Positions 6,389 to 13,273 of a DNA stretch of 29,152 nt are shown one piece after another; positions within the stretch are counted from its first letter, which is position 1; each line of letters opens with the position of its first letter. The stretch lies in IMG/VR virus record IMGVR_UViG_3300043775_002897, positions 1 to 29,152 of that record; one strand, 5' to 3'. The notes beneath the pieces are model-generated. The model was not told the origin of the DNA, made no database searches, and saw nothing but the letters and a program-made list of their open reading frames with translations. Origin of the DNA: a virus. Both the position numbers and the translations under genes were made by a program.

Positions 6389-6799
6389 TCAGTTGTTCTT
6401 TGCTTCTTGCTTCATTGGTTCAGTTTGCGAGATGTCAAAGACATTCCCAAAGGCGAACCGAAAGGTTGGTTTCTTCTCATCAGGGGTGGGGTCAGGAGTT
6501 GCTGCACTGGTTCTTGGCTTCAATGGAACCCATATGCCCAAGGCTTTACTGCCCTTGGAGACAACGCGCCCCGCTCTTTTCCATTGGTCGAAGCCGCCGA
6601 CTATGGTGGCGCTCTTCAACTGATTGAGGACGAGGTAGGTGTTCTTAGGGCTGAGTGGTTTCTTCTCAATAGTCATCACATCCACAGGGAGGAATGCCTT
6701 GAGTTCTTCCGGTGTCATAAGGCTCGCCTTGGCAGCGAGTTCTGTTAGCATGGCGCGGCGTGCATCCGCCGCAGGATTAGGTGGTCTTTTTGTTTTCAT
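6389..6799 (-). CDS. ArdC N-terminal (ssDNA-binding) domain protein, putative antirestriction
   Basis: A 136-residue protein. The segment SPKNTYLVLNQLKSATIVGGFDQWKRAGRVVSKGSKALGIWVPL followed by FGNVFDISQTE matches the ArdC N-terminal domain (DUF1738-type: N-x-L-x-L, W-x-x-x-GR-x-V-x-KG-x-K, VFDxSQT). In ArdC this domain binds single-stranded DNA and is normally followed by a zincin metallopeptidase domain, which is absent here. The protein ends shortly after the domain with EAKNN. Its start overlaps the stop of the 58-residue gene (ATGA). Antirestriction is inferred from the family; a role in DNA entry or ssDNA protection is the alternative. Confidence 0.85.
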   Translation of the reverse strand: MKTKRPPNPAADARRAMLTELAAKASLMTPEELKAFLPVDVMTIEKKPLSPKNTYLVLNQLKSATIVGGFDQWKRAGRVVSKGSKALGIWVPLKPRTSAATPDPTPDEKKPTFRFAFGNVFDISQTEPMKQEAKNN

Positions 6800-8210: not shown

Positions 8211-8831
8211 CTAAAATTCCCAGCGGTGTTTGACCCACAATGGAAACTCCAAGCTGGGTGATCGGAGTTGTGGGGGATAGAGGGAGTCGGTGCGTTTTGC
8301 GACCAACCCCTCAAAGAGTTCCGCATGATAGCGAGTGTTGAGGCGCTGCAAGTGATCCCAAGCCGCAGCCTTGCCGCTGTCGTCATAACAGAAGTCAAAG
8401 AACATCAGCTTCTTTTCCCTAGGGCGCTCCTCAACACGCCAGGCTTCCCAGGCGGGGGTATTGCACAGCGCCAGGCGGATAACCTCACGGCGCTGCAAGT
8501 AGGTAGTCTTGTCGTATCTCGTTGGCATATAGTCGAGAACAACAAGGCTGCCGCGACCGACATCATGCCGACGCTCCAGCGCCTCGCAGTCCAACCAAGT
8601 CATCGACTCAGGCAGACTTGCGGAGCGTAGGGTGTCGAGAACCTCCGCAAACTCCTTCTCGATTGACAGGCGCTCGCCTCGGCGATTCCACATCTCACCG
8701 GTTTGCGTGTTCACTACTGCACGCCATCCGTTAATCTTTGGTTCATAGCTCCAGACCCCCGGCTTGATCCTCGCCCTAGGGAGAGGACCGCCGTTGATCG
8801 GACGCAGCGGGTAGGATGGCGGTTTACTCAT
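8211..8831 (-). CDS. Minimal ATP-dependent ligase-like nucleotidyltransferase
   Basis: A 206-residue protein. The start at 8831 (MSKPPSYPLRPING) is supported by overlap with the 40-residue gene's stop. Nucleotidyltransferase motifs: motif I EPKINGWR with candidate AMP-accepting K32; NRRGERL (49-55); WLDCEALE (79-86); LVVLDYM (96-102, motif III region); FEGLVAKR (173-180, motif IV); WVKHRW (199-204, motif V). The protein ends right after motif V, so the OB-fold is absent. Motif I is KxNG rather than the common KxDG. Most likely it seals nicks in phage DNA; RNA ligase activity is possible. It fits the early replication/repair genes. Confidence 0.85.
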   Translation of the reverse strand: MSKPPSYPLRPINGGPLPRARIKPGVWSYEPKINGWRAVVNTQTGEMWNRRGERLSIEKEFAEVLDTLRSASLPESMTWLDCEALERRHDVGRGSLVVLDYMPTRYDKTTYLQRREVIRLALCNTPAWEAWRVEERPREKKLMFFDFCYDDSGKAAAWDHLQRLNTRYHAELFEGLVAKRTDSLYPPQLRSPSLEFPLWVKHRWEF

Positions 8832-8946
8832 CGTCTTCCTCCTCGTCGTCTCTTGAGATTCCGTGCTCGCGACAGAAGTCATCGTGCCGCATTTCATCCA
8901 TCTCGCTGTCGTATTTACCGTGGTCGTATTCTTCTTCGTATGGCAT
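8824..8946 (-). CDS. Very small acidic protein
   Basis: A 40-residue open frame, MPYEEEYDHGKYDSEMDEM... ending EEEDDE, with about half its residues D or E. It starts one base after the stop of the 210-residue gene, and its stop overlaps the ligase ATG (ATGAGTAA), which argues that it is translated. Such acidic peptides in phages may act as DNA mimics or inhibitors, but nothing specific is recognisable here. Confidence 0.6.
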   Translation of the reverse strand: MPYEEEYDHGKYDSEMDEMRHDDFCREHGISRDDEEEDDE

Positions 8947-9579
8947 TTACTTGCGTCCTTTCGTGCTGAGTGCAATGCGAGCGGGGCAAACCCGTTCGAC
9001 GGCCATGTTCTCCTCTACCGACAGCGCCGTGTGGCGTGCGGCGTGGAAGTCAGGCGTCGGCTTGATTGCCGCTTTGAAGGTAAGCGCATCCGACGCGCCA
9101 TACTCGGCGAACAACTCTTGAATCGCGGCGATGAGCGCGTTAGCGTTGTCGGCGGGAATCTTGTCGCCGTCAATCTTTAGCTCGAAGGACTGGCGGAAAA
9201 ACTTGGCGGTGCGCTCCTCGCCAAGCACCTCTATGATAGGTGTTTCATCGGCCAGAGTTGCGTATCGGTTTTGGATACTGATAAGCACTTTCTCATTGTT
9301 CGCTCCGACAGCCTCCACACTTGATGGGACATCATGCTTGTTGTGGTGGTGGTTGAAGTAGAAGTCTTGAGCCAAGACCTTTAGCTCTCTTGTCTTGATG
9401 CTGACGCTGGCCTCTATGGCTTCAATCTCACGGGACTCATTGACGATGTCGCTCGTCAACTTGGCGACATCGCCGCATGGATCAGGTAGGGTGGGGTAGC
9501 TTGTCTTGCTGCCCTCTTTCTTAGTGGCGATGCCACCAAAGTTGATCTTCTTAATTGCTGGTGCTGTTGTGGTTGTCAT
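8947..9579 (-). CDS. Hypothetical phage protein, 210 residues
   Basis: A 210-residue protein. It has a T/K-rich N-terminus, a predicted helical segment DVAKLTSDIVNESREIEAIEASVSIKTRELKVLAQDFYF, then HHHNKHDVPSSVEAVGANNEKVLISIQNRYATL and a helical C-terminal half. Not recognised with confidence; the arrangement resembles conserved phage proteins of unknown function found near replication genes. It has its own box plus hairpin (9603-9625) and an A-rich leader (GAAATAAATG), so it probably heads the 9579 to 7803 (or further) transcript. No membrane segments. Confidence 0.82.
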   Translation of the reverse strand: MTTTTAPAIKKINFGGIATKKEGSKTSYPTLPDPCGDVAKLTSDIVNESREIEAIEASVSIKTRELKVLAQDFYFNHHHNKHDVPSSVEAVGANNEKVLISIQNRYATLADETPIIEVLGEERTAKFFRQSFELKIDGDKIPADNANALIAAIQELFAEYGASDALTFKAAIKPTPDFHAARHTALSVEENMAVERVCPARIALSTKGRK

Positions 9580-10434: not shown

Positions 10435-10953
10435 TTATTTGTATAGGTTGATGATGCACTGATCTAATTCTTTGGCGGCAACGTCGCCGCAAACTCGGGC
10501 AACTCTTGCCCTGATCTTGGCAACCTTCAGGTTGCAAGACCGCTTCACTATGGAGAACTCCTCACTGAATTTATTAGTTCCAATGATCGTGCCCTTCACT
10601 ACTCGGAGGGGCATTCTTATTGTCTCTCCATTCTTCTCCACTTCTGGGAAGAAAGTCTTAGTCTCCACCACGAGAACAAAATGCACAGGCTTCTTTGGTG
10701 CATGATTCAGTGATACATTGCCCCGCTCATGCTTTGCAATGAGGAGGCGGCTCTGAAGGGCAAGCCTTGTTTCGAGGGGAGTCGGCAAGGGCAAACGGGT
10801 TTCCTTATACTTGGATGTCTGGTTGCCTGCGACCTTGTTCTTGAATCGGGCGATGATCTCACCCCGCTTGTCAAAGCTCCAGTCCTTGCGGTCGAGCATT
10901 GTATCTTTGAGGAGGAGCCCATGCTCGCGGATTTGTTGGAAGTTGGATGTCAT
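10435..10953 (-). CDS. Hypothetical protein, 172 residues
   Basis: A 172-residue basic protein. N-terminal part: MTSNFQQIREHGLLLKDTMLDRKDWSF; a middle beta-rich stretch HFVLVVETKTFFPEVEKNGETIRMPLRVVKGTIIG; C-terminal RVARVCGDVAAKELDQCIINLYK. No catalytic motif is obvious. It lies directly downstream of the 104-residue gene with an ATGA overlap, and therefore on the transcript that carries the hammerhead ribozyme. Confidence 0.78.
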   Translation of the reverse strand: MTSNFQQIREHGLLLKDTMLDRKDWSFDKRGEIIARFKNKVAGNQTSKYKETRLPLPTPLETRLALQSRLLIAKHERGNVSLNHAPKKPVHFVLVVETKTFFPEVEKNGETIRMPLRVVKGTIIGTNKFSEEFSIVKRSCNLKVAKIRARVARVCGDVAAKELDQCIINLYK

Positions 10954-11264
10954 AATTCGTAGTTTCCTTCATGTTTCAGTTCATCAATGACGCCTCGATA
11001 AGCCTCGACTTCAGCGTCAAGGGCAAGAAGGCCGTAGTTCCGACGATCAGCGGGGTATGAAACGCCGCTGGCATGGTCAATCGGGGACATAAGCGTGGTC
11101 AGGTAGTCTTGAACCCTGACAAACGAGAGTCTTACCTCTCGATCCAGAGCCCCAATGGGCAGGGTGTCATTGAGCAGGGAGTCAAGCCGCATAATCATTT
11201 CCCGAGTCGCGGCGACGGCGGTGCGGACTTCTTTAGAGTCCATGATGTCTTCAGTATGTAACAT
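10950..11264 (-). CDS. Hypothetical protein just downstream of the hammerhead ribozyme
   Basis: A 104-residue helical protein; start at 11264 (MLHTEDIMDSKEV), with an in-frame ATG at 11243 as alternative. It contains ATREMIMRLDSLL and LSFVRVQDYLTTLMSP helices. No known domain. The 5' leader AACAAGAAAGAAAGTT is A/G-rich. Ribozyme cleavage at 11324/11323 would give this cistron a defined 59-base leader with a 5'-OH end, which could change its stability or translation. Confidence 0.75.
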   Translation of the reverse strand: MLHTEDIMDSKEVRTAVAATREMIMRLDSLLNDTLPIGALDREVRLSFVRVQDYLTTLMSPIDHASGVSYPADRRNYGLLALDAEVEAYRGVIDELKHEGNYEL

Positions 11265-11286: not shown

Positions 11287-11354
11287 TAATCTGATGGTCT
11301 CATCAGTGTCCGCATTACGGACAGACACCCCTTGCGGGGTGTTTCGACCTATTA
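11287..11354 (-). ncRNA. Type II hammerhead ribozyme
   Basis: On the minus strand every conserved hammerhead element is present in circular order. Stem II 3' strand GGTC (11349-11346); GAAA (11345-11342); stem III CACCCC / GGGGTG closed by a GCAA tetraloop, with the A-U pair of GAAA and GUC; cleavage triplet GTC ending at 11324; stem I TGTCCG / CGGACA closed by TAATG; CTGATGA (11306-11300); stem II 5' strand GACC (11299-11296), pairing with GGTC. An outer TAAT/ATTA helix (11354-11351 with 11290-11287), beyond an A/ATCAG internal loop, extends stem II. Predicted cleavage lies between 11324 and 11323. It starts on the stop codon of the 137-residue gene and ends 22 bases before the next ATG, so it would cut a polycistronic message between two genes. 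Hammerheads open at stem II (type II) are known from bacteria and phages. Confidence 0.94.
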
Positions 11355-11765
11355 CTCAGTGGCTTGGGTGAGCATCTTGAATGCAACTTCCTCAGTGACA
11401 CCGATTTGTTTCGCCAACTTAGCGGCAGCAGTCTTGAGAATTGCAGTCTCATCAGCGGCAGGAGCCGCATCAGGAGCAAAGCGGCAGGACATATCCAACC
11501 CAGTGAACTCATTGGTCTTGGCACTGAAGACATACTTCACTTTGGTCACGTCGAGAGTATGGTCGGCAGCGGCGAGCGCCAATGCCTTGCGGTTGCTGGT
11601 GTAGAACTCACGCTTGGCGAGATCGAATTGCTTGCGGGTTTCTTTGTTGACGACGAGCCCCTTCATTGTGGCGTAGTCGCTGATCTTGATCATGCTGCCC
11701 GATTTTGCACGGAGGGAATGGTCGATGGTAACGGTTTGATTATTGATTGTGATTGCGTTTGACAT
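11352..11765 (-). CDS. Hypothetical protein between the large RNA candidate and the ribozyme
   Basis: A 137-residue protein; start at 11765 (MSNAITINNQTVTIDHSLRAKSG) because the leader AAACTAAAACCATG matches others in the window, whereas upstream the frame passes through strong hairpins. N-terminal beta-like repeats (AITINNQTVTID), a basic middle (NKETRKQFDLAKREFYTSNRKALALA) and a helical, alanine-rich C-terminus (AADETAILKTAAAKLAKQIGVTEEVAFKML). No recognised family. Its TAA is inside the outer helix of the hammerhead ribozyme. Confidence 0.78.
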   Translation of the reverse strand: MSNAITINNQTVTIDHSLRAKSGSMIKISDYATMKGLVVNKETRKQFDLAKREFYTSNRKALALAAADHTLDVTKVKYVFSAKTNEFTGLDMSCRFAPDAAPAADETAILKTAAAKLAKQIGVTEEVAFKMLTQATE

Positions 11766-11779
11766 GGTTTTAGTTTTTC

Positions 11780-12534
11780 TATGAGTTGAATATCCATCTC
11801 CTGCGATTGTCGCAGGCCATGGATTGCAACCCATCGAAAGCGATGGATTGATTGTATGGACGCGGGAAGGGTTGCGATTGGATAGCCCAGACTACCCTCC
11901 CCGCTTTCGCTTGGCATAGCGCCAAGGCCACACGGCGCAATGATACACCCTTGCAGGGCACGGAGGCCGTTATATCTTGCGCTTGTTTGGTTAAGGTTGC
12001 TTTGTTGCATGGATTCACTCCACGCGGTTCCGCACTTTACGGGCGGCGTTCGTTTGACGTTTCCATTCACGGCGTTCAGACTCACTACACACTTTCCACT
12101 TTCTGACTAATCGCTATGGCGACCTCGCTACGCTCTCATCATGGCAAGGTTGCGACATTTTCAAGTAGTCGCGTCGCCCGTCACAGGCACTCGTTTTTCA
12201 CTAATTCCTTTCTCGGTTTGAACATTCACAAGCCTTATCCGCGCTACTGGCACTAATCCCCAGCGATCTTAGAAAAACACACACAGCCTTTAAAAGATAC
12301 TCACAGCGGCAGCTTGCTTTGACACCTTGTCAGAGCCTTAGCTTTTACTTCTCGAACCTCTTGCGAAGTCCCGAGCCAGCGGGCAGGATTTGCACCCTCG
12401 TTTCATCCTATGCTCTTGGAAAAGGTAGTGATGAACCACTGACACTTCTCTATACGGAATCTTTGCAACTTACTGCTTTTCAACGCTTTGCCTTGCCATT
12501 CCACGGCTTTTCTGCAAAAATTGCCAGTTATTAA
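11780..12534 (-). ncRNA. Candidate large structured RNA (about 750 nt)
   Basis: No convincing gene, but many perfect short helices: CCTGCGA/TCGCAGG (11800-11816), CCATCG/CGATGG (11831-11846), an 11-pair helix 11862-11872 with 11894-11904, CTTGGC/GCCAAG (11910-11926), ACGGC/GCCGT (11932-11936 with 11966-11970) enclosing CCCT/AGGG (11948-11958), GCGAC/GTCGC (12152-12172). In the 11-pair helix one position is A-C on the plus strand but G-U on the minus strand, which points to minus-strand transcription. A degenerate box TTAATAAC (12534-12527) could be its promoter. Two short frames on the minus strand here lack good composition. Size and phage setting recall the GOLLD and ROOL RNA classes, but I cannot match a consensus. 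It may instead be a very long leader of the 137-residue gene. Confidence 0.55.
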
Positions 12535-12659
12535 TTTTTCAACATACTACACTTAAAACATTGCGCCTTAGGGCATTGCATACTTTAAAAAATGGCGGCG
12601 TATAGGGTGAAATGTCAGGATAAAGCGGGACAAAGCAAAGGGCCGGTGATGCTAAAGTG

Positions 12660-12790
12660 CTGTGAATCAATGGTTTAATGATTCAAGGGATACGGGTTAG
12701 AAACCCGTGCAACGACTTAAAAATGGAAATTCGACCCACCACGGACCCCACCACGGTAGGGGGCTATCACCAGCTATCGCTGGTGCGATC
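12660..12790. other. Hairpin cluster in the non-coding region
   Basis: Three good hairpins in 130 bases: GAATCA/TGATTC (12664-12684), ACGGGTT/AACCCGT (12692-12708) and CACCAGC/GCTGGTG (12768-12785). The second can be drawn as a tRNA T-arm (ACGGG, loop TTAGAAA, CCCGT), but no acceptor partner or D-arm is present. Between them CCACCACGG-like words are repeated (12736-12755). Strand unknown; it could be part of the neighbouring RNA candidate or of an origin region. Confidence 0.4.
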
Positions 12791-12889
12791 TATCATTGAC
12801 CTAACAAAAATTTTTTGTGCGGTTTTTGGAAAAACATTATTATGCGCATATCTATCTTTGAGCCGATTTAGGGCCGAGTGGAGGGGCGA

Positions 12890-13200
12890 GCGCAGGCGGG
12901 GGGTTTAGAAAAATGGGGGGGTCTCGGGGGGTCAGTTTTGACCAAAACCCCCCACACTTAAACGCTCCGAGTGCAAGACTTTAACCCCTCTAAGGGGGGT
13001 TTGGGGGTTTGTCCTATTCTACTATTTAAAAAAAGTATATATATTAGGGTTATTCCTAGTTTTTTCCTGTAGTTTTTTCCCATGATCTCTTACCCCCCCC
13101 CCCCCCCCCAAACCCCCCTTTTGGTTGTAATGCGCTCCTTCGGAGAGACTTAATTTTTGACAAAAGTTAATAACACCCCCCTTTTGGCGCTAAACCCCCC
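12890..13200. other. G/C homopolymer and AT-rich non-coding region, possible origin
   Basis: Non-coding DNA with runs of G on the plus strand (GGGGGG around 12899, 12917 and 12925), a GGTCA/TGACC hairpin flanked by G6 and C6 (12925-12948), CCCCT/AGGGG, then an AT-rich stretch (13019-13045), two copies of TAGTTTTTTCC (13057-13067 and 13070-13080), and C17 (13093-13109) followed by further AACCCCCC words. Neighbouring AT-rich and G-quadruplex-capable segments fit a replication origin or a control region, but no DnaA boxes or initiator iterons are evident. The remaining bases between 12,790 and 12,890 hold nothing I can identify. Confidence 0.4.
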
Positions 13201-13214
13201 TCCTTCGGGGCAAG

Positions 13215-13242
13215 AAAAAACCCTCGGCACCACTACCGAGGG
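13215..13242 (-). terminator. Intrinsic terminator of the sigma factor operon
   Basis: Perfect stem CCCTCGG (13221-13227) / CCGAGGG (13236-13242) with an eight-base loop; on the minus strand it is followed by six T (13220-13215). It lies 32 bases after the stop of the sigma gene at 13274, so it ends the 14814-to-13274 transcript. Confidence 0.88.
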
Positions 13243-13273
13243 TTATTCTATACGCACATCCAGCGTTCAGCTT

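Follow-up and report, generated by a model that had tools for sequence, protein, structure and literature searches.

Type II hammerhead ribozymes have been known and tested in phages since 2011 (Perreault et al. 2011, PMC3088659; Rfam RF02276). That survey describes in vitro cleavage of native polycistronic RNAs by tandem hammerheads of phages, some of which also cut in E. coli (PMC3088659). In Agrobacterium, Azorhizobium and Clostridium scindens, tandem prophage hammerheads lie at gene borders within one transcript, and it was proposed that they cut this transcript into gene-length mRNAs (PMC3088659). With regard to the haloviruses HF1/HF2, a transcript 5' end was mapped no more than 3 nt from where the hammerhead cuts, which can be taken as published support for cutting in vivo in phage (PMC3088659). 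In most published type II elements, loop I and the 3' tail form a pseudoknot (PMC3088659). With type II hammerheads familiar from phages for this long, the element described here is not in itself new; the more interesting outcome is a general rule for the placement of such elements behind stop codons.

We analysed a virus record of 29,152 bases (hereafter the window). Judged from its letters, the segment listed in Table 1 is a genuine and complete type II hammerhead ribozyme (11349-11296, minus strand, by direct reading) with three helices and a canonical core, and the observation made in the initial annotation is thereby confirmed. The catalytic core that it had named (CUGAUGA, GAAA and a GUC triplet, the latter serving as the NUH before the cut) was borne out by the sequence and by the alignments to Rfam and to our own covariance model R1 (see below), and the predicted cut site agrees with the same sources. 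The three helices it had listed, with their GCAA and UAAUG loops and the open GACC/GGUC stem II, are all present in the sequence, and the descriptor scan likewise found stems I and III closed and stem II open. In folding, the stem III hairpin (11325-11342) reached -12.7 kcal/mol and the stem I hairpin (11307-11323) -8.5 kcal/mol. The intergenic position also agrees with the coordinates. The upstream gene ends with the stop TAA 11354-11352, followed by an in-frame TAG 11351-11349; the 5' strand of stem II abuts this double stop and shares the G of the TAG, so that the ribozyme lies 0-2 nt behind the upstream stop and on the same strand as both neighbour genes. The next ATG (11264) follows 22 nt past 11287 and 35 nt past the core end.

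Table 1. Hammerhead parts and flanking genes in the window
Feature	Position	Strand	Basis or remark
Upstream gene (ORF of 160 aa; 137 aa from the probable true start ATG 11765)	11352..11834	-	ORF lists
A before stem II	11350	-	Base present in most relatives
Stem II 5' strand GGUC	11349-11346	-	Sequence
Conserved GAAA (G12 A13 A14 A15.1)	11345-11342	-	Sequence; Rfam and R1 alignments
Stem III ACACCCC/GGGGUGU, 7 bp, loop GCAA	11342-11336/11331-11325	-	Sequence, folding
C17, predicted cleavage site 11324/11323	11324	-	GUC triplet in Rfam and R1 alignments
Stem I UGUCCG/CGGACA, 6 bp, pentaloop UAAUG	11323-11318/11312-11307	-	Sequence, folding
Conserved core CUGAUGA	11306-11300	-	Sequence; Rfam and R1 alignments
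Stem II 3' strand GACC	11299-11296	-	Sequence
3' tail AUCAG AUUA	11295-11287	-	Sequence, folding, comparison with relatives
Downstream gene, 104 aa, ATG 11264	10950..11264	-	Not found in G004

The initial annotation had proposed a search with the Rfam type II covariance model. In a permissive Rfam search RF02276 was the sole ribozyme match in the window, with the type II hammerhead ranked first (E 0.0021 when every family was run on the full 29 kb, and E 4.9e-7 as a single-family search), but its score of 33.9 bits stayed below the gathering score of 37 bits, which is a curator's cut-off and no defining feature of hammerheads. At the curated cut-offs nothing was reported in the window. R1, a covariance model trained on 26 phage type II hammerheads of the pentaloop subgroup described below, with the window copy and that of the related phage G004 left out, gave the window element 75.2 bits (E 1.9e-18) and the G004 copy 62.8 bits; the element thus scored better than chance with both models. 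A descriptor scan for core and helices found exactly one element in the window, whereas 300 shuffles that preserved the dinucleotides gave no match under the strict and the relaxed settings, and two at the loosest setting only. The folding energy of the element was unusually low (z -4.0), and together with the shuffles (0/300) this excludes a chance origin of the motif. Across the 26 relatives 98.6% of the positions concerned were paired, all six pairs of stem I varied on both sides and three of the four pairs of stem II did so, a strong covariation that should be read with the choice of the relatives in mind, as they were picked partly by stem pairing and for a 6-bp stem I. The motif between the stop and the next start on the coding strand is intact and selected for structure. 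Beyond this element, the window yielded neither a further hammerhead nor another Rfam ribozyme, and six related loci gave none either.

Phage type II elements fall into two structural groups, for which all counts were taken among the matches listed. In the group with a longer loop I, this loop can form at least 4 Watson-Crick pairs with the 3' tail in 78 of 109 elements, compared to 36.7 when the tails were swapped, which corresponds to the published pseudoknot. In the second group (n=42), stem I measures about 6 bp and loop I is short, mostly five bases starting with U, and here the pseudoknot stayed at chance level (3/42 versus 3.6 with swapped tails; the tally considers loop letters and Watson-Crick pairs only). 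With its 6-bp stem I and five-base loop, the window element belongs to this pseudoknot-free pentaloop subgroup. A UAAU/AUUA pairing is possible in the window and lost in G004, and given the chance level among the 42 members we rejected a pseudoknot for the subgroup. The extra outer helix on stem II that had been noted initially fared similarly: its UAAU/AUUA letters are indeed present, but the helix is missing in G004 and was found in 11 of the 42 members compared to 9.3 with swapped flanks, and it was rejected as a conserved feature. On the other hand, UCAG occurs in or after stem II in 26/42 elements of the second group as opposed to 10/109 of the pseudoknot group. In the window the tail's UCAG is complementary to CUGA of the core (11291-11306 region, minus strand), and this complementarity, which recurs in the pentaloop subgroup, may represent a tertiary contact or an off-switch.

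The two groups also differ in how they are detected. The Rfam cut-off recognises a hammerhead in 14 of 15 pseudoknot-subgroup contigs and in only 2 of 16 pentaloop-subgroup contigs, so the window element would go unannotated, as would many such phage ribozymes under current annotation. We also observed, on single viral contigs, arrays of at least six type II hammerheads each (six or seven) spaced a few hundred bases apart and scoring over the Rfam cut-off (L101 7030-11272 and L083 9828-12349). Hammerhead-carrying contigs further gave Rfam matches to RT-14 RNA and tmRNA (L041 5998-6156; L083 13474-13575).

In the minimum-energy fold of the window element, CUGAUG pairs with CAUCAG in a competing hairpin that masks the core, a result to be read with the caveat that folding energies take no account of the catalytic core. 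This fold and the score below the gathering cut-off are what one would expect if the hammerhead were decayed or misfolded and no longer cutting, its hairpins serving as exonuclease barriers or as a spacer. We consider this very improbable, as every core residue is intact and the core is unchanged in G004, the independent model R1 awards 75 bits, and most of the remaining pentaloop-subgroup members escape Rfam too. For an active ribozyme, the same hairpin could act as a brake.

To place the element among its kind, we searched viral contigs by pattern. When stem III was fixed to that of the window, the exact pattern matched 74 contigs, and a freer stem III gave at least 120 matches; such elements are thus widespread in phages, and the one in the window is an ordinary representative. 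After removal of near duplicates, 149 type II elements among the matches listed were examined for their position relative to the nearest stop. An element was called flush when the stop codon of an ORF (minimum length 50 aa) ended 0-8 nt before GAAA, at or inside the stem II strand. As many as 114 of the 149 were flush with the upstream stop, compared to 4.5 at random positions of the same contigs and 3.2 at nearby ones, while the opposite strand gave 0. The upstream proteins formed 111 unrelated clusters among the matches listed, 100 of them with a flush case, which demonstrates that the pattern does not stem from one repeated gene family. Measured at the 5' edge of the open helix, again among the matches listed, 116/152 type II elements were flush, compared to 18/46 of type I (Fisher p 9e-6) and 2/29 of type III (p 1e-12) taken from the same collection, with the reservation that the type I and III sample was picked by its stem II pattern and that relatedness was incompletely removed. 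Hence, starting in the stop codon, which the initial annotation had noted in passing, is a rule that phage type II hammerheads follow and type III elements do not. In the main text of the 2011 survey stop codons go unmentioned (PMC3088659).

The flush position may, however, reflect merely genome compaction and shared letters. The ribozyme would then be active with a position irrelevant to translation, the compact phage genome having reduced the gap to the least space needed and the stop (UAA or UA|G) supplying the A before stem II. This A is present in 39 of 41 subgroup relatives, and it is enriched also where no stop is adjacent (7/8, these being among the 41, and 17/27, compared to a background of 24%), which indicates that the stop codon supplies a letter that the ribozyme wants. 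The gaps on the 3' side of phage type II elements are short as well, some 25 nt separating stem II from the start codon. In contrast, type III elements are mostly set back from the nearest stop by 13-34 nt, and the low numbers of flush cases in type III and type I argue that compaction alone does not make hammerheads flush. Weighing both sides, we give this explanation somewhat less than an even chance. Type II hammerheads could also be built into the stop codon such that translation competes with self-cleavage, a terminating ribosome unfolding the ribozyme and cutting depending on upstream translation, with the pseudoknot-free subgroup of the window, largely overlooked by Rfam, doing so with a five-base loop I; such a device appears rather doubtful to us. 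The strict stop-codon placement of type II, which type III does not share, provides a testable lead on ribosome control of the cut.

Relatives of the window were collected via its DNA polymerase as 26 loci of other viral contigs, and their whole records were searched with RF02276. This yielded one further real copy, in G004 (62,760 bases), directly behind the stop of a gene that is similar to the window's upstream gene at its C-terminus; in the remaining related contigs the region was missing or no hammerhead was found. The core residues are unchanged in the G004 copy, in which A9 is followed by an additional U ahead of stem II; one extra base at this place occurs in 33/157 phage elements among the matches listed. 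The core genes of the window and G004 share about 82-84% nucleotide identity over long stretches. The nucleotide comparison showed the ribozyme as an island of 82 nt at 91.6% identity, with the first 50 bases identical, between two non-aligning stretches that hold both neighbour genes. The downstream gene of 104 aa was not found in G004, and a 172-aa gene further downstream is 89% identical at the protein level; used as an anchor, the latter led only to G004 among viral contigs and to none in bacterial genomes. That the ribozyme was kept while its neighbours were swapped argues that it serves the junction and not one particular gene. The identical island could also mean that the ribozyme is mainly a fixed homology block at which recombination swaps gene cassettes, a notion to which the arrays of six or seven hammerheads on other contigs would lend themselves. 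Yet the stems covary across the group, the structure being kept while the sequence changes, which points to selection on the RNA fold and not on sequence identity, and we regard the homology block as unlikely.

The minus strand of the window carries genes for a sigma-like factor, a primase-like protein, a family A DNA polymerase, a helicase/nuclease and an integrase-like protein, and the plus strand carries a terminase and a tail gene. Neither gene flanking the ribozyme matched a described family in PHROG or Pfam (for the upstream gene there was no PHROG match and a sub-threshold Pfam match only), neither had relatives among viral contigs, and the region around the ribozyme showed no DNA similarity in named phages. 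An intrinsic terminator at the ribozyme site was rejected, as no T run follows stem III and none was listed there. A strong terminator-like hairpin with a T run lies directly behind the sigma-like gene (13244-13219, minus strand), suggesting that the ribozyme belongs to a separate transcription unit. Between the sigma-like gene and the upstream gene, a stretch of about 1.4 kb contains few ORFs (11835-13273, minus strand). About 830 nt of it are 79% identical in G004, and it could be a leader, an origin or a large noncoding RNA, with no Rfam match; a long G run within it (approximately 13090-13110, minus strand) may be an assembly-sensitive homopolymer. Two further minus-strand genes were observed. 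A 254-aa protein (8211-8975) has weak similarity, just under the Pfam cut-off, to ATP-dependent DNA ligases, and a nucleic acid ligase beside a self-cleaving RNA would be of interest. A 136-aa protein (6389-6799) has weak similarity to the N-terminal domain of the anti-restriction protein ArdC; ardA, another anti-restriction gene, has been noted beside published prophage hammerheads.

The motif, its significance, its positional conservation and its flush placement across phages are observations, from which we infer cleavage, end protection, an effect of ribosomes and a regulatory role. We consider it quite probable that this type II hammerhead cuts the polycistronic minus-strand message between 11324 and 11323 during transcription, ahead of or between ribosomes, and yields hairpin-shielded, independent transcripts. 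By established hammerhead chemistry, cleavage after C17 would leave a 2',3'-cyclic phosphate and a 5'-OH. In the type II order the two closed stems, I and III, directly flank the cut, so that both products would end in hairpins, the upstream one with stem III at its 3' terminus and the downstream one with stem I at its 5' terminus. Such hairpins were predicted to be stable across phage elements (medians of -11.3 and -9.5 kcal/mol in folding, among the matches listed) and, judging from this anatomy, should slow exonucleases and 5'-end-dependent decay. The two genes would thereby reside on separate transcripts with independent decay and translation. A ribosome at a stop codon covers roughly the next 12-15 nt, and one terminating the upstream gene would accordingly cover stem II and GAAA. 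As the ribozyme starts at the upstream stop, cutting should occur ahead of or between ribosomes, and translation and cutting would possibly exclude each other in time. The masked core in the minimum-energy fold, the single relative with a copy and the extra U of G004 count against this explanation.

Processing of a polycistronic message is nevertheless the most likely reading, and it matches what was proposed for the published prophage hammerheads (PMC3088659). In those tandem systems several ribozymes flank the genes, in contrast to a single one found in the 29 kb of the window. The window element shares with the type II family RF02276 the core, the order GAAA - cut site - CUGAUGA, the closed stems I and III, the open stem II, and the intergenic location among phage genes on the coding strand. 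Unlike most published type II elements it lacks a pseudoknot linking loop I to the 3' tail (PMC3088659), and its subgroup differs further in the fixed 6-bp stem I, the five-base loop and the score under the Rfam cut-off. The hammerhead variant of HF1/HF2 (HHphage, PMC3088659) resembles it in lying within an early phage gene cluster, as does the VOLN27B element described next; the published position of HHphage, 13 nt ahead of the start codon of a helicase, differs from that of the window element. In another cultured halovirus, Halorubrum virus VOLN27B (L350 1496-1562), we found an unannotated hammerhead-like element that differs from that of the window in its altered core CUUUGAUGA and longer loop I, and that lies one or two bases behind the stop codon of a helicase gene.
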